Source: Actinophytocola xinjiangensis (GTDB lineage: Bacteria > Actinomycetota > Actinomycetes > Mycobacteriales > Pseudonocardiaceae). Taken from it: a stretch of DNA of 64,000 bases. Under the pieces are notes generated by a model. That model was not told the DNA's origin. It was given only the letters and a program-made list of their open reading frames with translations, and made no database searches. The stretch covers positions 1 through 64,000 of the forward strand of contig NZ_MSIF01000026.1 in assembly GCF_001921215.1 (NCBI RefSeq). Reading direction: 5' to 3'. Shown here piece by piece: positions 15,308 to 33,721 of this stretch (the first letter of the stretch is position 1; each line of letters opens with the position of its first letter). Made by a program: the position numbers and the translations under genes.

Positions 15308-17560
15308 TCACTCGCTCCTGCCGTTGTCGTACGCGTCGGGCCAGTCGGCGGTCACCTCGGCCAGCGTCGCGATGTCCTGGTCGGTCAGGCCGAGCCACTC
15401 GGTGAGCACCTCGGCGGTGTGTTGGCCCAGCGTCGGCGCCGCCGTGCGGTTCCACCGCACGTCGTGGCGCGCCGAGCGGAACGGAAGTCCCGGCACCACA
15501 TGGGTTCCGGCGACGGGGTGGTCGACCGGCTCGAAGAACCGCCGGTGGGCCAGCTGCGGGTTGCCGGTCAGCCGGCCGGGTCCGGTGACCACGGCCGCCG
15601 GGACACCGTGCGCCTCCAGGGCCGCGACCAGCTCGGCCGGCGGGTGGCGGCGGGTCCAGCGGGTGATCGCCTCGTCGATCTCGTCGTGGTGGTGGCGGCG
15701 CTGCCCGGCGGTCCGGGCCGGCTGGCCGATGAGGCCGGCCAGCGCCGCCCACTCCCGGTCGTCGCGCACGCTCAGCGCGATCCACCGGTCCGGCTCGGCG
15801 CTCGGGTAGACGCCCTGCGGGGCGTGGCTCGGGTCGCGGTTGCCCAGCCGTTGCGGGGCGATGCCGGCCACCTGCCAGGCGGCGAGCTGTCCGAAGCTGG
15901 CACGCACGGCCAGTTCCAGCATCGGCACCTCGACCGTGCCGGCGACGCCGGTCCGGTCGCGGTGGCGCAGCGCGGCCAGGCAGGCCAGCGCCGCGTGCAC
16001 GCCGGCCAGCGGGTCGCACACCCCGCGCGGGGCCAGCGGCGGGCCGTCCGGGTAGCCGGTGGTCCAGGCCAGCCCGCTGGCCTGCTCGATGGTCTGGGCG
16101 AAGCCGGTGCGGTCGCGCCAGCTCCCGGTCAGACCGAAGGCCGGCATCCGCACGGTGACCAGACGGGGGTTGTCGCGGCGCACCGCCGGCCAGTCCAGCG
16201 GGAACGAGTCGAGCACGCGCGGGGTGAAGTTCTCGATCAGCACGTCGGCGCGCCGGGCGAGGTCACCCAGCACCGCCGCACCCTCCGATGTGGACAAATC
16301 GAGGGCGATGCCGCGCTTGTTGGTGTTGAGCGCGAAGTACACCGGGCCGTACTCCCACCACTGGCGCGCGGTCGGGTCGGCGACGAACGACAGGCGCATC
16401 CCGTCCGGGCGACGCGCCGACTCGACCTTCACCACGTCGGCACCCAGTGCCGCCAGCAGGTGGGTACTGGCCGGGCCGGCCCACCACGCGGTCAGGTCCA
16501 GCACCCGCAGCCCGGCCAGCGGCAGACCGTCGCGGTCACCGGTGTCCGGCCGGGACGGTGCCGTCCCGTCCCCGGTGAACCGCAGCGGCGGGCCGGGGCG
16601 GGTCAGGCCGTCGGCGCCGGTGGTGAAGAAGCCGCGCTCGCGCAGCTGTTCGTTGTCCAGCAGGGTGTCCCCGGAGCCGACCGGGGCGACCGGGATCCGG
16701 AACGCCGAGGCGAGGTCGACGACCTCGGCGGTGGTCAGCGACGCCGCCCAGTCCACGATCGCGGCCTTCAGCTCGTCCTGGCGCTGCTGGCGGGCGGTGC
16801 CGTAGGCCAGCGACTCGTCGTCGGCCAGGTCCGGGCGCCCGACCAGGACCATCAGGTCCTGGCGCTGGCGCGCGGAGATCGTGCACAGGCCGACCCAGCC
16901 GTCGCGGGTGCGTTCGATCGCCGGGATCTGCACCGACCGGCCGGGGAAGTCGGTGCCCTCGTGGCCCCACAGGCTGGCGTGGGTGGTGCCGAAGGTCGTC
17001 AGGCCGAGGTTGGTGGCCTCCAGGACCGACAGGTCGAGGTGGTCGCCGAGGCCGGTACGGGCCGCGCCGCGCAGGCAGGCCAGGGCACCGGCCAGGGCGT
17101 AGGCGCCGGCCAGGTACTGCTCGATCTCCCCGCCGGCCTGTACCGGCGGCGCCGACGGCTCACCGCGCCAGGCCGTCGACCCGGCGGCGGCCTGGAGCAC
17201 CGCCGAGGTCGCCGGGCGGCCGGTCCACGGCCCGGTCGACCCGAAGTCGGTGATCGTCACGACCACCACCTCCGGGCGCCGGGCGCGCAGCGCGGCGACG
17301 TCGAGCGTGCCGTCGTCGAGCACCAGGTCCGCCGACTCGACGGCACCGGGGCCCGCCGGCAGCGAGCCCTCGGTGAGGTAGCCGGTCAGGGCCGCGCGCG
17401 CGGCCGGCAGGCCGCCGGTGCCCGCGTCGCTGAAGCGCACCGGCAGGCCGGCCGGGCGGTGGACGGTCGCGCCGAGTTCGTGGCACAGCCGCGCGGCGTA
17501 CACCCCGGCCAGACCGGTGGACAGGTCGCCCACCGTCAGCCCGGTCAGCAGGGCGGTCAC
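15308..17560 (-). CDS. Tandem-fused CaiB/BaiF CoA-transferase
   Basis: A 750-residue protein made of two CaiB/BaiF domains in series, roughly residues 1-375 and 395-750. The first begins 'LLTGLTVGDLSTGLAGVYAA' and the second 'LAGLRVLDLTAWWAGPAS', each followed by the 'GADVVKVES'-type strand. Single-domain family members are about 400 residues and form interlocked dimers; the fusion supplies both halves in one chain. The second half has the more typical sequence and may hold the only working active site. The GTG at 17560 overlaps the OB-fold gene stop (GTGA). It probably transfers CoA to the pathway acid from a CoA donor such as succinyl-CoA. Confidence 0.88.
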   Translation of the reverse strand: MTALLTGLTVGDLSTGLAGVYAARLCHELGATVHRPAGLPVRFSDAGTGGLPAARAALTGYLTEGSLPAGPGAVESADLVLDDGTLDVAALRARRPEVVVVTITDFGSTGPWTGRPATSAVLQAAAGSTAWRGEPSAPPVQAGGEIEQYLAGAYALAGALACLRGAARTGLGDHLDLSVLEATNLGLTTFGTTHASLWGHEGTDFPGRSVQIPAIERTRDGWVGLCTISARQRQDLMVLVGRPDLADDESLAYGTARQQRQDELKAAIVDWAASLTTAEVVDLASAFRIPVAPVGSGDTLLDNEQLRERGFFTTGADGLTRPGPPLRFTGDGTAPSRPDTGDRDGLPLAGLRVLDLTAWWAGPASTHLLAALGADVVKVESARRPDGMRLSFVADPTARQWWEYGPVYFALNTNKRGIALDLSTSEGAAVLGDLARRADVLIENFTPRVLDSFPLDWPAVRRDNPRLVTVRMPAFGLTGSWRDRTGFAQTIEQASGLAWTTGYPDGPPLAPRGVCDPLAGVHAALACLAALRHRDRTGVAGTVEVPMLELAVRASFGQLAAWQVAGIAPQRLGNRDPSHAPQGVYPSAEPDRWIALSVRDDREWAALAGLIGQPARTAGQRRHHHDEIDEAITRWTRRHPPAELVAALEAHGVPAAVVTGPGRLTGNPQLAHRRFFEPVDHPVAGTHVVPGLPFRSARHDVRWNRTAAPTLGQHTAEVLTEWLGLTDQDIATLAEVTADWPDAYDNGRSE

Positions 17561-28335: not shown

Positions 28336-29322
28336 GTGCGGTTCGCGTTGAGCGCCGAGCAGGCCCAGTTCCGGGACCTGGTCCGCGACCTGCTGGCCGC
28401 CGAGTGCCCCGCGCAGGTGGTGCGCGCCGGCTGGGCCGGTGAGCCGGCCGCCGTCGGTCGCGTGTGGACGATGCTGGCCGAGCTGGGCGTGACCGGTCTG
28501 CTGGTCGCGGCGCAGGACGGCGGGCTCGCACTCGACGAGGTGTACCTGGTGCCGGTGCTGACCGAGGTCGGCTACGCCGGCCTGCCCGGCCCGCTGGTCG
28601 AGACGGTCACCGGCGCCGCCCTCGGCGCCGCGCTGCCGGCCGGAGCGTTGGACGCGGTCCTGGCCGGCACCGGGCGGATCGCGGTGGACGAGGACGACGA
28701 CGGCCTGGTGGCCCACGGGGTCGGGGCGACGGTCCTGCTGCGTGGCGGGTGGGCCGGGGGCACCCCGGTGCGTGTCGTGTCCACGGTGGACCTCGAACCG
28801 GTGGCGGCGGTCGACCGCACCCGGGCCCTGGCCCGCTACCGGTCCGACGGCACGCCCGTCGACCTGCCGGTGGCGGTGTTCTGGCAGCGGGGCGTCCTCG
28901 GCACCTCGGCCGCCCTCACCGGCCTGGCCAGGCGACTGCTGGACCTGACGGTCGACTACGTCACCCAGCGCGAGCAGTTCGGCGTGCCGATCGGCAGTTT
29001 CCAGGCCGTCAAACACCAACTGGCCGAGCTGGCGCTGGCGATCGAACTGGCCAGCCCGGCCGTGCTGCGGGCCGCGCACTCGCTGGCCACCGGCGACCCG
29101 GCGGCGGCCACCCACGTGTCGATGGCCAAGGTCCTCGCCGGTCAGGCCGCCGCGCGCGCGGCGACGACGTCCATCCAGTGCCACGGCGCGATGGGCTACA
29201 CCGAGGAGTCCGACGTGCACCTGTTCGCCAAGCGGGCGCTCGCGCTGGCCGGCGCGTGGGGCCCGACCGGCTGGCACCGCCGCGCGGTCGCCGCCGACCT
29301 CACCCCAGGCAAGGAGTCCTGA
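28336..29322 (+). CDS. Acyl-CoA dehydrogenase, divergent partner subunit
   Basis: A 328-residue, shortened acyl-CoA dehydrogenase. The N-terminal helical domain is clear ('FALSAEQAQFRDLVRDLLAA') and the C-terminal domain carries 'YVTQREQFGVPIGSFQAVKH' and 'IQCHGAMGYTEESDVHLFAK', but the middle beta domain is reduced and lacks the usual flavin-contact motif. GTG at 28336 has GAGGAGG eight bases upstream; GTG at 28327, overlapping the previous stop, is possible. The combination suggests a heteromeric partner of the preceding dehydrogenase, as known for paired FadE proteins of cholesterol catabolism (family knowledge; pairing here is inferred). Confidence 0.88.
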   Translation: MRFALSAEQAQFRDLVRDLLAAECPAQVVRAGWAGEPAAVGRVWTMLAELGVTGLLVAAQDGGLALDEVYLVPVLTEVGYAGLPGPLVETVTGAALGAALPAGALDAVLAGTGRIAVDEDDDGLVAHGVGATVLLRGGWAGGTPVRVVSTVDLEPVAAVDRTRALARYRSDGTPVDLPVAVFWQRGVLGTSAALTGLARRLLDLTVDYVTQREQFGVPIGSFQAVKHQLAELALAIELASPAVLRAAHSLATGDPAAATHVSMAKVLAGQAAARAATTSIQCHGAMGYTEESDVHLFAKRALALAGAWGPTGWHRRAVAADLTPGKES

Positions 29323-30161
29323 TGTCCGACCAGCCCGTCACCTACGAGGTCCGCGACCGGGTCGCGGTCATCACGATGAACCGCCCGCGCTACCGCAACG
29401 CCCAGAACTCGGCCATGACCTACGCCCTGGACGACGCGTTCTACCGGGCCGCGGCCGACGACGAGGTCGCCGTGCTGGTCCTGGCCGGTGCCGGCGACCA
29501 CTTCTCCGCCGGCCACGACATCGGCACCCCGGAGCGGGACGCGGACGTCTCCTTCCCCCGCCGCGCCGGCCTGTGGTGGGACCACGTCGGCAAGTCCGGC
29601 GCGGAGAGCCGCCTGGCTCGGGAGTCGGAGGTGTACCTGGGGATGTGCCGGCGGTGGCGGGAGCTGCCCAAGCCGTCGATCGCCATGGTCCAGGGCGCGT
29701 GCGTGGCCGGTGGTCTGATGCTGGCCTGGAGCTGTGATCTGCTGATCGCCGCCGACGACGCGTTCTTCGCCGATCCGGTGGTACGGATGGGAATCCCGGG
29801 CGTGGAGTACTTCGCCCACCCGTGGGTGATGGGCCCGCGCTTCGCCAAGGAGTTCCTGTTCCTCGGTGAACGGGTGCCGGCCGCGCGGGCCCACGAACTC
29901 GGCATGGTCAACCGGGTCGTGCCCCGCGACCAGCTGGCGACGGAGACCTTCGCCGTGGCCGGCCGGATCGCCACCATGCCCCGCCTTGGCCTGGCGCTGA
30001 CCAAACGCGCGGTCAACCACGCCGAGGACCTGATGGGCCTGCGGTCCGGAATGGACGCCGCGTTCGCCCTGCACCACGTGGCACACGCGCACAACGCCGA
30101 GGTCGGCAGCGACTCGCTCGCCGGCCACGACGCCCGCTCCATGCGCGACGCCGCCCGGTGA
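29322..30161 (+). CDS. Enoyl-CoA hydratase/isomerase
   Basis: A 279-residue crotonase. First oxyanion-hole strand 'LAGAGDHFSAGHDIGTP', second 'IAMVQGACVAGGLMLAW', and the region of the catalytic acid 'ADPVVRMGIPGVEYFAHPWV', where an Asp appears in place of the usual Glu. An insert near residues 70-100 ('RRAGLWWDHVGKSGAES') is typical of a subgroup of actinobacterial hydratases. TGATG joins it to the dehydrogenase gene, so it should act on the enoyl-CoA those subunits make. It ends 7 bp from the convergent amidohydrolase gene. Confidence 0.9.
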   Translation: MSDQPVTYEVRDRVAVITMNRPRYRNAQNSAMTYALDDAFYRAAADDEVAVLVLAGAGDHFSAGHDIGTPERDADVSFPRRAGLWWDHVGKSGAESRLARESEVYLGMCRRWRELPKPSIAMVQGACVAGGLMLAWSCDLLIAADDAFFADPVVRMGIPGVEYFAHPWVMGPRFAKEFLFLGERVPAARAHELGMVNRVVPRDQLATETFAVAGRIATMPRLGLALTKRAVNHAEDLMGLRSGMDAAFALHHVAHAHNAEVGSDSLAGHDARSMRDAAR

Positions 30162-30168
30162 CCCGGGG

Positions 30169-31509
30169 TCAGTGAACCCGGTGCCCGGCGATCACCGTAC
30201 GGCGGACCATCGCCGCGCGGGGGTGGCGCAGGGTCTGCGCGAGCGGTTCGGCCAGCAGGACCAGGTCGGCCACCGCGCCCGGTTCGACCCGGCGCGGCGG
30301 GCCGCCGGGGTGGTCGGCCGGGGCGAGGTAGCCGGCCAGCGCGGTCCGGGCCGCCACCCGCTCGTCCGGGGCGATCGCCCTGGTCACCGAGGCGTCGATG
30401 ACCGTCCAGGGGTCCAGCGGGCCGTAGGGTGCGTCGCTGGAGGGCGCCACCGGGACACCGGCGGCGAGCAGGCTGGCGTAGCGGTACAGGTCGCGGTGCT
30501 CGGCTGCCGGGACGTCGCGCCGGTAGTCCGCGCCACGGTCGGTGAGGAACGCCGGCTGGGTCACCACGGTCAGCGGCCGGGCGGCCAGGCCGGCCAGCAG
30601 GTCGTCGGGGACCAGGGCGGCGTGCTCGATCCGGTCGCCGGGGTGGCCGCCGGTGAGGTCGAGCGCGGCCAGCAGCAGGACCAGCGCCTCCACCGTGACG
30701 CAGTGCGCGGCGATCGCCCGGCCGGTGGCGTGCGCGGCGGCGATCACCCCGGTCAGGTCGTCGAGGGTGGGCAGGCCGGAGTCGGCCAGGACGATCTTGT
30801 ACGGGCCGGCGGTCAGCCCGTCGGGGACCGGGCCGGTCAGCGGGGCGCCGAGCAGGCGCACGTGTTGCGGGAGCGCCCCGGCGAAGGCGGCGGGGTCCAC
30901 GTCGGGGGTGGCGTCGGTGACCGAGGTGATGCCGTGGGCGGCCAGCCGGGCGCCGACGTCGGCCAGTGGCGGCGGTGCGCCGGCGGGCAGCCTGGAGCGC
31001 AGCCAGGGGTCGGCGCGCCAGAGCCGGCCGGTGGCGGTGCCGTCGGCGGCGCGTTCCACTCCGGGGTGGCTGGCGGTGGCGAGTCCGACGGCGCGGGCGG
31101 CGGCGGTGTTGAGCATCCACAGGGCGCCACCTCGGTGTTGGACGCGGACCGGGCGGTCGGGGTGCAGCGCGTCGAGGGCCGCGGCGTCCAGCGGGCCGGC
31201 GACGTCCTCGGTGTAGCCGGTGCCGCGTACCCAGCCGTGCTCGTCGGCGGTGGCACGGCGCAGCGCGTCGGCGAGGCCGGCCCGGTCCAGCGGCGGTCCA
31301 CAGTGGACGGACGTGGCGGCGCGGGCGAGCGCGTGCAGGTGCAGGTGGTGGTCGGTCAGGCCGGGCAGCAGCGCGCCGCCGGCACAGTCCACGACCTCCC
31401 CGACCCCGGCCGTCGGCAGGCCTGGCCCGACGGCGGCGACCCGGTCGGCCACGACGAGCACGTCGAGCACGGCGCCGGCCACCTCGGCCCGCCGGTACAG
31501 GGTGCTCAC
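30169..31509 (-). CDS. Amidohydrolase (YtcJ/amidohydrolase-3 type)
   Basis: A 446-residue metal-dependent hydrolase. The metal motif 'GLTDHHLHLHA' follows a short beta sandwich, later ligand histidines are seen in 'AIAAHCVTVEAL' and 'DRIEHAALVP', and the terminal Asp in 'APSSDAPYGPLDPW'. The C-terminal sandwich closes with 'PGAVADLVLLAEPL'. Enzymes of this group cleave amide, cyclic amide or similar C-N bonds. GTG at 31509 overlaps the stop of the upstream CoA-transferase (GTGA). It could release the free acid used by the island from an amide or lactam precursor. Confidence 0.85.
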   Translation of the reverse strand: MSTLYRRAEVAGAVLDVLVVADRVAAVGPGLPTAGVGEVVDCAGGALLPGLTDHHLHLHALARAATSVHCGPPLDRAGLADALRRATADEHGWVRGTGYTEDVAGPLDAAALDALHPDRPVRVQHRGGALWMLNTAAARAVGLATASHPGVERAADGTATGRLWRADPWLRSRLPAGAPPPLADVGARLAAHGITSVTDATPDVDPAAFAGALPQHVRLLGAPLTGPVPDGLTAGPYKIVLADSGLPTLDDLTGVIAAAHATGRAIAAHCVTVEALVLLLAALDLTGGHPGDRIEHAALVPDDLLAGLAARPLTVVTQPAFLTDRGADYRRDVPAAEHRDLYRYASLLAAGVPVAPSSDAPYGPLDPWTVIDASVTRAIAPDERVAARTALAGYLAPADHPGGPPRRVEPGAVADLVLLAEPLAQTLRHPRAAMVRRTVIAGHRVH

Positions 31510-32678
31510 GACAACCCCACCTCGCGCAGGACCTCGGCGGTGTCCGCGCCGCTGGCCGGCGCGGTGCCGGTGACCTCGCCGTGCCGGGGCGCGCGGACCT
31601 CGTGGCCCCCGACGACCCAGCGCCCGCCGGCCCACTCGGCCGCCGGTGCCGGGCCCACCGGGCCGGGCGGGAGGGTCGCGGCGACCACCCCGGCCATCGG
31701 GACGTCGAGCAGGGTGCCCGGCGGCGCCGACAGCGCCAGGACGGCCGCCGCGAGGCCGGTGAGCGGGTCGGCGAGCGCGTCGCCGCAGAACAGCGGGGTG
31801 CCGGCCGCGTCCCGGGCGACCAGGCCGGCGCCGGCCGCGACGTCGTCGCCGAAACCCACCCGGTCCGACGCCCGGCCGGCGGCGGTGATCGACACCCAGG
31901 TCGTGCCGGCGGCGGCGCACGCCCGCGCGTCCAGGCCGAACCCGGCCAGCGCCCGGGGCCGGGAGGCCTCCACGACGAAGTCGGCCGCCGCGACCAGTCC
32001 GGCCATGGCGGCCCGGCCGTCGCGGGTGGCCGGGTCCAGCACCACACTCCGGTGGCCGGCGTGCAGCAGGCGGTAGAAGCCGGCGTCGGCCAGCCGGGCA
32101 CCGTCCGGGCGGGACGGTGTCTCGACCTTGACCACCCGCGCCCCGGCCAGCCCCAGCAGCCGCGCGCACAGCGGACCCGCCCACAGCGCGCTGAAGTCCA
32201 CCACCAGCGCGCCGTCGACCCGCCGGCCCGGCGCGGCACCGAGATCCACGGCCGGGGCCGGGGCGACCGGGGTGGCCGCCAGACCCAGCAGGGTCGCCCG
32301 GTCGGCGAGATCCGCGCCGGTGTGCCCGGCCAGCCACGCGGTGATCGCCGGCCACGGGTCGCCCTCGATCGGCGACTCCACCAGGGCGCCGAACAGGGCC
32401 GGATCGTCGGGGCGGGCGCAGGACACCGCCGCCCAGCCGTCGGCGGTGGGCAGCAGCCGGGCGTGCCCGCCGGCCGAGCGCGTGCCGCGCCGGGTCACTC
32501 CGGTGAACGCGGCCCGCTCGGCCAGCAGCGCCGGGCCGTCGACGGGGAACGGCAGTCGGCGCGCCAGCCGCAGCGCGACGGCGGCCGCGTCGCCGGGCGG
32601 AACCAGCGGCGGCCCGTCGGCGTGACCGGTGAGCGCGACGACGCCGCTGCTCGCCCACTGCGCCGTATCGTCTGCCAC
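31506..32678 (-). CDS. CaiB/BaiF-type CoA-transferase with permuted domain order
   Basis: A 390-residue protein with CaiB/BaiF elements in an unusual order. The first 140 residues look like the middle and C-terminal parts of a normal member ('SSGVVALTGHADGPPLVPPG', 'LPTADGWAAVSC'), whereas the canonical N-terminal Rossmann-like part comes later ('VDFSALWAGPLCARLLGLAG', 'ARVVKVETPSRPDG', near residues 155-190). This equals the central section of a tandem fusion such as the gene at 15308-17560. GTG at 32678 has no ribosome-binding site; TACAAT lies 7 bases before it, so the message may be leaderless. It is coupled to the amidohydrolase gene. Confidence 0.75.
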   Translation of the reverse strand: MADDTAQWASSGVVALTGHADGPPLVPPGDAAAVALRLARRLPFPVDGPALLAERAAFTGVTRRGTRSAGGHARLLPTADGWAAVSCARPDDPALFGALVESPIEGDPWPAITAWLAGHTGADLADRATLLGLAATPVAPAPAVDLGAAPGRRVDGALVVDFSALWAGPLCARLLGLAGARVVKVETPSRPDGARLADAGFYRLLHAGHRSVVLDPATRDGRAAMAGLVAAADFVVEASRPRALAGFGLDARACAAAGTTWVSITAAGRASDRVGFGDDVAAGAGLVARDAAGTPLFCGDALADPLTGLAAAVLALSAPPGTLLDVPMAGVVAATLPPGPVGPAPAAEWAGGRWVVGGHEVRAPRHGEVTGTAPASGADTAEVLREVGLS

Positions 32679-32695: not shown

Positions 32696-33721
32696 TTGAA
32701 CCACAAGGAATGGACAGTCGAACAGCTCGCCTCCGAGTCCATTGTGGACCCCTTGGGCGACCCGGTACGGATCGTCAACGTACCGTCCACGGTGGACCCC
32801 GGGTTGATCGACCGGGCCCGCCGGGCGGCGCTGGCATCGCACCGCGTCCTGGTCGGCGTGTGCCGGGTCCCGCCGGCCTCCGGGCTGACCGGTCTGCTCA
32901 CCGCGCTGGACGTCACCCTCGCCCCGACCGCGCCGCACCGCTGCTGCGTGGCCACCGCCGACCCCGACCGCGCGGCCGGCGAACTGGCCGACGCGGTGAC
33001 CGCCCACCCGCACGCGGCCCTGGTCCTGGCCCGGCTGCTGCGCTGGAGCGGCACCCTGGAGGTCCCGGCCGCGCTGGACGCCGAGTCGCTGGCGTACTCG
33101 ACGCTGCTGGCCGGCCCGGAGTTCGCCCGGTGGTCGGCCGGCAACACCCGCCGGCCGCCGGCCGCCCACCCCGACCCGGTGCTCGTCGACCGGACCGGCG
33201 ACACGCTGACGATCACCCTCAACCGGCCCGACCGGCACAACGCCTACGGCCGGGCCCTGCGGGACGCGCTGGTCGACGCGCTGCGCGTCGCCGAGATCGA
33301 CCCGACCGCCGAGCGGGTCGTGCTGCGTGGCGCCGGCCCGACGTTCTGCTCCGGCGGCGACCTCGGCGAGTTCGGCACCACCCCCGACCCGGTCACCGCG
33401 CATCTGGTCCGCACCGGCGCCGGCGCCGCGCCGCCGCTGCACCGGCTGGCCGGCCGGGTCGAGGTCAGGGTGCACGGCCGGTGCGTCGGCGCTGGCGTGG
33501 AACTGCCGGCCTTCGCCGCCCGGGTGGTGTCCACCCGGGACGCGACGTTCCGGCTGCCGGAGCTGTCGATGGGCCTGATCCCCGGCGCGGGCGGCACGGT
33601 CTCGCTGCCGCGCCGGATCGGCCGCTGGCGCACGTTCCACCTCGCCGGCACCCAGCACGCCCTGGACGCGGCCACCGCTCTCGCGTGGCGACTGGTCGAC
33701 GAACTCACCGACCCTGAGTGA
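32696..33721 (+). CDS. Enoyl-CoA hydratase family protein with N-terminal extension
   Basis: A 341-residue protein: about 165 N-terminal residues of unclear origin ('VNVPSTVDPGLIDRARRAAL', 'SLAYSTLLAGPEFARW') and a C-terminal crotonase domain ('ITLNRPDRHNAYGRALRDAL', 'GAGPTFCSGGDLGEFG', 'RVHGRCVGAGVELPAF', 'ELSMGLIPGAGGTVSLPRRIG'). The extension may be a degenerate crotonase half. The TTG start at 32696 is chosen because GGGAGGG lies eight bases upstream. Its start codon is only 17 bp from that of the divergent CoA-transferase, so the promoters must overlap the opposite gene or each other. Confidence 0.82.
   Translation: MNHKEWTVEQLASESIVDPLGDPVRIVNVPSTVDPGLIDRARRAALASHRVLVGVCRVPPASGLTGLLTALDVTLAPTAPHRCCVATADPDRAAGELADAVTAHPHAALVLARLLRWSGTLEVPAALDAESLAYSTLLAGPEFARWSAGNTRRPPAAHPDPVLVDRTGDTLTITLNRPDRHNAYGRALRDALVDALRVAEIDPTAERVVLRGAGPTFCSGGDLGEFGTTPDPVTAHLVRTGAGAAPPLHRLAGRVEVRVHGRCVGAGVELPAFAARVVSTRDATFRLPELSMGLIPGAGGTVSLPRRIGRWRTFHLAGTQHALDAATALAWRLVDELTDPE

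Follow-up and report, generated by a model that had tools for sequence, protein, structure and literature searches.

Interlocked rings are the signature of class III coenzyme A (CoA)-transferases. As described in one report (PMC3720670), the small domain of the canonical class III protomer is inserted in the large domain, the resulting ring is threaded by the partner subunit, and the active site of YfdE combines Asp173 and His233 of different subunits. The stretch of DNA analyzed here, 64,000 nt from Actinophytocola xinjiangensis (contig NZ_MSIF01000026.1, positions 1 to 64,000; hereafter the window), carries at nt 31506–32678, on the minus strand, an open reading frame (ORF) for a 390-residue class III CoA-transferase homologue in which the small domain comes first and a contiguous large domain follows. 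The architecture, which characterises a widespread bacterial family, is genuine and conserved, and it is unusual for the known superfamily to which the protein belongs.

The protein resembles the class III structures FRC (1p5h), YfdW (1pt5), YfdE (4hl6), and SUGCT (9br7) in belonging to PF02515, in possessing both domains, in the position of the catalytic Asp, and in the fold of the large domain (Z about 20), but differs from them in that its small domain is N-terminal instead of inserted in the large domain, one remnant is duplicated, about 40 template columns are missing, and a Trp takes the position of FRC Gln17. The benzylsuccinate CoA-transferase BbsEF (9fn0, 9fol) is alike in large-domain fold and, going by the record titles, in combining two different class III-type subunits, whereas these are two separate chains, the order of which was taken as canonical from whole-chain matches. 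The alpha-methylacyl-CoA racemase MCR (1x74) shares the superfamily fold (Z about 17) but has the canonical order, racemase chemistry, and a lower degree of similarity. An open-access literature search returned no paper on permuted family III/CaiB or tandem family III CoA-transferases, and the open-access papers on circular permutation together with CoA-transferase or enoyl-CoA hydratase were, in the portions accessible, unrelated. The features of the gene, in window coordinates, are as follows.

31506..32678, minus strand: ORF of 390 aa, class III CoA-transferase homologue with the small domain first (80 same-order homologues)
32229..32678, minus strand: segment A, residues 1–150, remnant of the large-domain end plus small domain (hhalign to canonical template 200–376)
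32559..32657, minus strand: residues 8–40, WxxSG..LTG..DGPP..PPG remnant with a helix; B has a counterpart of this segment (overlaps template 200–262)
32256..32498, minus strand: residues 61–141, small-domain core (predicted secondary structure, PF02515 match, and structure matches)
31506..32225, minus strand: segment B, residues 152–390, contiguous large domain (VIA-align to YfdW/FRC; PF02515 2–178)
31767..31769, minus strand: GAC codon of D304, the predicted catalytic aspartate within GDALADPLTG (aligned with FRC Asp169)
31509..31577, minus strand: residues 368–390, canonical C-terminal tail, still C-terminal (hhalign to template 416–438, E 2e-4)

The protein has a Rossmann-like large domain as well as a small domain, and their order departs from the canonical one (N-terminal part of the large domain, small domain, C-terminal part of the large domain) in that the small domain leads. 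Positions 2–178 of the 366 in Pfam profile PF02515 were matched by residues 155–318 with 101.1 bits against a curated cut-off of 23.3. When segment A was scanned alone, its residues 65–138 matched PF02515 positions 221–311 with E 7e-4, a match that at 19.2 bits stayed under this cut-off; a PF02515 match at E ≤10 was obtained with 52 of the 61 A segments of the family, the best being 4.5e-6. The small-domain core is made up of the loop R.G..S.GG.CR, strands 73–78 and 81–86, three helices, and a strand at 135–137. Profile-profile alignment with hhalign employed a canonical profile of 16 sequences, namely 14 single-copy paralogues of the same genome and the second copies of two tandem fusions (see below). 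Segment A aligned with template columns 200–376, segment B with 60–262, and the C-terminal tail with 416–438; in a control run the scores were 70.9 for A and 204.5 for B, versus 24.1 and 24.9 for the best of 200 column shuffles and 15.0 and 17.9 for the reversed profiles, respectively. The initial annotation had placed a middle/C-terminal-type segment ahead of an N-terminal one, and the Pfam scans and the controlled alignments bear this out; the small-domain-first order is close to certain. A standard order visible only at remote similarity was considered and ruled out by aligning both segments to the same template, with shuffles and reversal, and by the separate Pfam scans.

The same annotation had called the domain apparently circularly permuted, a term that holds only loosely, since template columns 200–262 (about 60) are covered by both A and B and the old C-terminal tail, as located by hhalign, has not moved; neither is a property of a strict circular permutation. 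In addition, about 40 template columns (376–416) are missing from the protein. Judged from these alignments, what leads the chain is the small domain together with a leftover from the far end of the first large-domain part, and a better description of the protein is a small domain from one copy joined to the large domain from another, as a tandem fusion would leave behind on reduction.

The full-length structure was predicted with AlphaFold on 61 of 78 assembled sequences; the first alignment omitted rows L038, L051, L068, and L079. The full-length model had a predicted local distance difference test (pLDDT) value of 95.6 and a predicted template modelling (pTM) score of 0.93. Residues 152–390 were aligned with YfdW (1pt5, residues 3..403) over 239 residues at 2.3 Å (Z 20.5), and with chains of YfdW, FRC, SUGCT, and BbsEF, taking in their N- to C-terminal parts, at 2.3–2.7 Å (Z 19–21). 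In the model, segment B thus corresponds to a large domain from which the inserted small domain is absent. Since Foldseek and VIA follow the order of the sequence, only segment B comes out with the full model, and segment A was therefore predicted by itself. CaiB-family chains then made up 49 of the 50 rows shown (Z 6.2–7.7; Z 2.5 for the last row), and the FRC chain range covered was 137–358. The same full-length values make the predicted placement of A on B a confident one. The initial annotation had suggested that a permuted chain might still give an active dimer in the interlocked fold; with an uninterrupted large domain, dimers interlocked in the canonical way are unlikely, and the closed ring that links canonical dimers should be absent from the modelled protein.

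On balance, we favour the explanation that the protein is a class III homologue reduced from a tandem fusion, with predicted catalysis by D304, an N-terminal small domain, and no closed ring to be expected. It would begin with the copy 1 small domain, carrying a short piece of the copy 1 large domain, and continue with the large domain of copy 2, which would have lost its own small domain, leaving a small domain attached to the N-terminus of an uninterrupted large domain. The canonical site is formed by the large-domain Asp of one subunit and the small domain of its partner, and small domain 1 plus large domain 2 would be exactly what one tandem active site needs. D304 would attack the donor acyl-CoA, and the usual aspartyl anhydride and then aspartyl-CoA intermediates would follow, with the N-terminal small domain closing the active site either within its own chain, the protein then being monomeric or a simple dimer, or between the two chains of a swapped dimer. 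An unlinked active site in cis is plausible.

The tandem fusions to which this origin refers are represented in the window by one protein.

15308..17560, minus strand: 750-aa tandem CaiB fusion of the same island, with the catalytic Asp in copy 2 only

Nineteen such tandems, 18 and the window's own, were compiled and divided into nine N-type and ten window-type proteins. Asp was present in copy 2 of 19/19 and in copy 1 of only one, one further first copy having a gap. In the N-type tandems, which came from Nocardia and Gordonia loci, copy 1 kept the small-domain loop in 9/9 (GN in 7, GT in 2) and had Ser for Asp in 8, the ninth (L027) being cut there and unreadable, and copy 2 kept Asp and lost the small-domain loop in 9/9. 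These tandems lie about 5 kb downstream at loci L013, L018, L021, L027, L031, L037, L040, L050, and L063. The 390-residue protein shares with fusions of the 15308–17560 type a visible, in its own case probable, two-copy origin and the WAGP/RPDG motif, which the fusions have in copy 2 (9/10); in the fusions, both large and both small domains are retained.

Of 26 family rows, 24 had the combined WAGP and RPDG motif, as did 9 of the 10 second copies of window-type tandems; it was absent from all 51 single-copy proteins, from nine of nine window-type first copies, and from nine of nine N-type second copies. Descent from a window-type tandem is supported by this common motif but not proven by the trees. 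One family member that had been misfiled as a single (L009_s) was excluded from all trees, motif counts, and profile scores. In the full large-domain tree, B grouped with the window-type second copies (support 98/92), and in the small-domain tree without long rows, A grouped with the first copies (99/91); long branches meet in these segment-origin trees. A separate CaiB family comprises L096, a contig-end gene of the same genome (626–1375, minus strand), and L201, L202, and L203. In the three longer relatives, L201 to L203, copy 1 is recognised only from model column 163–167 and copy 2 mainly to 228–280, L203 having an additional weak piece of a second small domain (columns 319–353). As in the 390-residue protein, small domain 1 and large domain 2 are recognised; the differences are the length (frames of 646 and 663 residues, and one longer), a long unrecognised N-terminus, and, as read from the sequences, the lack of the WAGP/RPDG motif. 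This family is read as a less reduced combination of small domain 1 and large domain 2, representing either another instance of such a reduction or an intermediate along it.

The initial annotation had suggested an origin of the protein by trimming of both ends of a tandem and had matched it to the centre of the 750-residue fusion. The match holds for segment B, which BLAST aligned at 33% identity (residues 145–286) with the start of copy 2, but not for segment A; an additional 20-residue match (E 0.009) fell on copy 2 of the tandem and not on copy 1. The duplicated segment, the motif, the two trees with 98/92 and 99/91 support, and the L096/L201–L203 family argue for the trimming itself, and an origin from a reduced tandem is likely from these comparisons.

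Several observations weigh against this explanation. In the window-type tandems, copy 2 has both Asp and GN in 10/10 and copy 1 lacks GN in 10/10 and Asp in 9/10, a pattern that misfits a purely cross-copy active site. In the full small-domain tree, A grouped with nine first copies and also one unrelated long row (78/84, not significant). For the small-domain tree without long rows, approximately unbiased (AU) tests left other placements of A unrejected (p 0.26–0.30, two alternatives). That tree and a thinned large-domain tree were made with 12–13 additional long rows and alternate family rows removed; in the latter, B grouped with copy 1 (98/85), and holding B with copy 2 was no worse. Copy 1 does not stand out in the profile scores as the origin of A, and neither these scores nor the trees assign A or B to a particular copy. 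As to structure, segment A alone folds less well (pLDDT 82, pTM 0.52), its two parts are displaced relative to canonical chains, which accounts for its root mean square deviation of about 12 Å, and a pTM of 0.93 cannot distinguish a canonical-like from a new arrangement.

Some of these observations bear on an alternative, that of a true circular permutation of a single-copy gene, the product of which would act as a domain-swapped dimer with its small domain covering the Asp of the partner. All parts of the protomer except template columns 376–416 (about 40) are present once or twice, canonical active sites do form across subunits according to PMC3720670, and the AU tests leave room for other origins of A. 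A simple permutation, however, gives neither a doubled template segment 200–262 nor a canonical tail that is still C-terminal, and even as a monomer the protein is modelled with A confidently positioned relative to B. A true permutation is therefore considered unlikely, though it is the alternative that fares best.

D304, at the position of FRC Asp169, is invariant in 61/61 sequences, as are W166, S11, G12, G65, G70, R74, D80, G81, and W82. Within the remnant, W8, S11, G12, G18, P27, and G29 are invariant in the 61 sequences. The invariant W166 occupies the position of FRC Gln17, and the substrate pocket probably differs; a Trp at this position is common to copy 2 of the window-type tandems (WAGP in 10/10). 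In a sample of the phylum (296 genomes, six candidates scored per genome), 12 genomes, including that of the window, had matches spanning both segments at 241–644 bits, and the next best match, at 111.7 bits, covered segment B only. The Asp motif is kept in 12/12 of these members and the N-terminal remnant is lost in several distant ones; the core thus consists of the small domain and the large domain. The loss of the remnant in these members, together with the replacement of FRC Gln17 by W166, would also suit a degenerate paralogue devoid of CoA transfer that serves the module in binding or regulation. Against this, the Asp and many motif residues are invariant across 61 sequences, the Asp is retained in all 12 members of the phylum sample, and copy 2 of the window-type tandems has the same WAGP motif while keeping its Asp in 10/10. 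Degeneration is accordingly regarded as improbable.

An artefactual origin of the odd order, from coding sequence overlooked at the N-terminus, a frameshift, or faulty assembly, can be dismissed almost entirely in view of 80 homologous loci with one alignment across both segments, independently annotated Sphingobium and Streptomyces plasmid records carrying the protein, and in-frame stops closely upstream in several homologues. The relatives were obtained by scanning one genome per species, which gave 157 among the candidate stretches; the best 80 of the 157 were fetched and shared 54–69% identity in the best segment. Same-order homologues, the search for which the initial annotation had suggested, were thus found, a single alignment running through both segments in 80/80 fetched loci; in 76 of them the match starts at residue 14 or earlier and ends at residue 384 or later. 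The ORF starts with GTG, and its reading frame is intact. The divergent neighbouring ORF, at its first possible start, is only 17 nt away, which leaves little room for a hidden N-terminal domain, and homologues L003, L019, L064, and L078 have an in-frame stop 3–4 codons ahead of the match to query residues 1–2. No coding part missing upstream, which would have undone the earlier proposal, was seen in that 17-nt gap or ahead of these four homologues. Frameshift, missed N-terminus, and assembly error were each ruled out by the homologues, the plasmid records, and the upstream stops. A search of the viral collection found no relative of the 390-residue protein, and a pattern search over whole genomes matched 3 of 50.

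The two genes adjacent to the CoA-transferase homologue are as follows.

30169..31503, minus strand: Amidohydro_3 family enzyme, directly downstream (PF07969)
32696..33721, plus strand: divergent crotonase, probably with the C-terminal part first (PF00378 and hhalign)

Neighbours were counted by protein similarity to the proteins of the window, a diverged neighbour being scored as missing. On this basis the amidohydrolase follows on the same strand in 79/80 loci and a crotonase match lies on the opposite strand in 52/80, of which 49 end 3–865 nt from the CoA-transferase match, on its upstream side. Among ten more distant loci (L100 to L109), the amidohydrolase was within the fetched flanks in eight (not L101 and L109). 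In a sample of the class (296 genomes), the CoA-transferase family occurred in 58, the crotonase in 60, and both in 57, four genomes having only one of them; the counts ignore relatedness, and the crotonase limit of 165 bits was set after inspection of the list. Of the 57 genomes with both, 52 have them on a common contig and 41 within 6 kb. In these samples 6–7 candidates were scored per genome. Eleven of the 58 genomes with the CoA-transferase are matched only at or beyond model position 109, and 11 of the 60 with the crotonase only at or beyond residue 143; the rearranged N-terminal segment is reached by both matches in 40 of the 57.

Companions of the cluster include an AMP-ligase, an acyl-CoA dehydrogenase, and a MaoC-like protein in one actinobacterial genome and a GntR regulator in a second, where the cluster lies beside PEP (phosphoenolpyruvate) carboxykinase. 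The gene order presumably recalls Mycobacterium tuberculosis Rv0211–Rv0217c; no paper treating Rv0216 together with fadE3 was found in the open-access literature. Thirteen plasmid records had a match, 11 annotated as "CoA transferase", one with nothing at that place, and one without annotation. Twelve of the 13, the Sphingobium plasmid included, match over both segments, and three plasmid proteins match the family model end to end with 298–640 bits. The Sphingobium plasmid (L196, nt 355897–374841 of NZ_CP016453.1) carries the whole triad of CoA transferase, amidohydrolase, and crotonase; its occurrence at such a distance from Actinomycetota points to lateral transfer. Genes for aromatic degradation lie close to the triad on Rhodococcus plasmid pDK3, and several mycofactocin (mft) genes adjoin it on a Streptomyces plasmid (L199, NZ_CP108236.1). 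The gene companions and plasmid contexts make a catabolic role of the module likely, in which a carboxylate arising from the module with its amidohydrolase and crotonase would probably be activated by the CoA-transferase homologue.

The divergent crotonase is itself of unusual build. Only 7–173 of the 251 positions of PF00378 are covered, and they fall on residues 171–337, near the end of the protein. Its N-terminal segment aligned by hhalign with template 173–282, the C-terminal part of a crotonase (score 38.6, probability 73%; 200 shuffles at most 21.2, reversed 16.1), and the remainder maps to template 27–212; an alignment with more sequences gave a score of 36.3 and a probability of 65%. 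A weak second match (E 0.04) places residues 43–80 on template 95–132, earlier in order, as expected of a trimmed first copy. With a hidden Markov model, the extensions were detected at E<0.01 in 17 and at E<1 in 67 of 79 sequences. From these alignments the crotonase is probably rearranged, with its C-terminal part first, a conclusion held with moderate confidence. A further frame of 565 residues at nt 28464–30161 (plus strand) matches crotonase only at residues 298–541, and its unexplained N-terminal half overlaps an acyl-CoA dehydrogenase frame.

How linked dimers arise or come undone is a folding question made testable by this family, as a natural family with the inserted domain at a terminus allows direct comparison of the same active-site parts without the ring. 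A graded series, from the symmetric enzyme through the tandem with Asp in one copy and the loop in the other and the partly reduced form to the 390-residue protein, would document how a symmetric enzyme is pared down to one active site. More tentatively, the protein may represent a widespread "unlinked" class III enzyme, a tandem cut down to one active site in cis, with the adjacent crotonase, which would catalyse a neighbouring step, having taken the same tandem-and-trim route and being co-inherited with it. Two rearranged enzymes, the crotonase being a probable case, in one conserved module that extends from Actinomycetota to a plasmid of Sphingobium would also point to an uncharacterised catabolic pathway.

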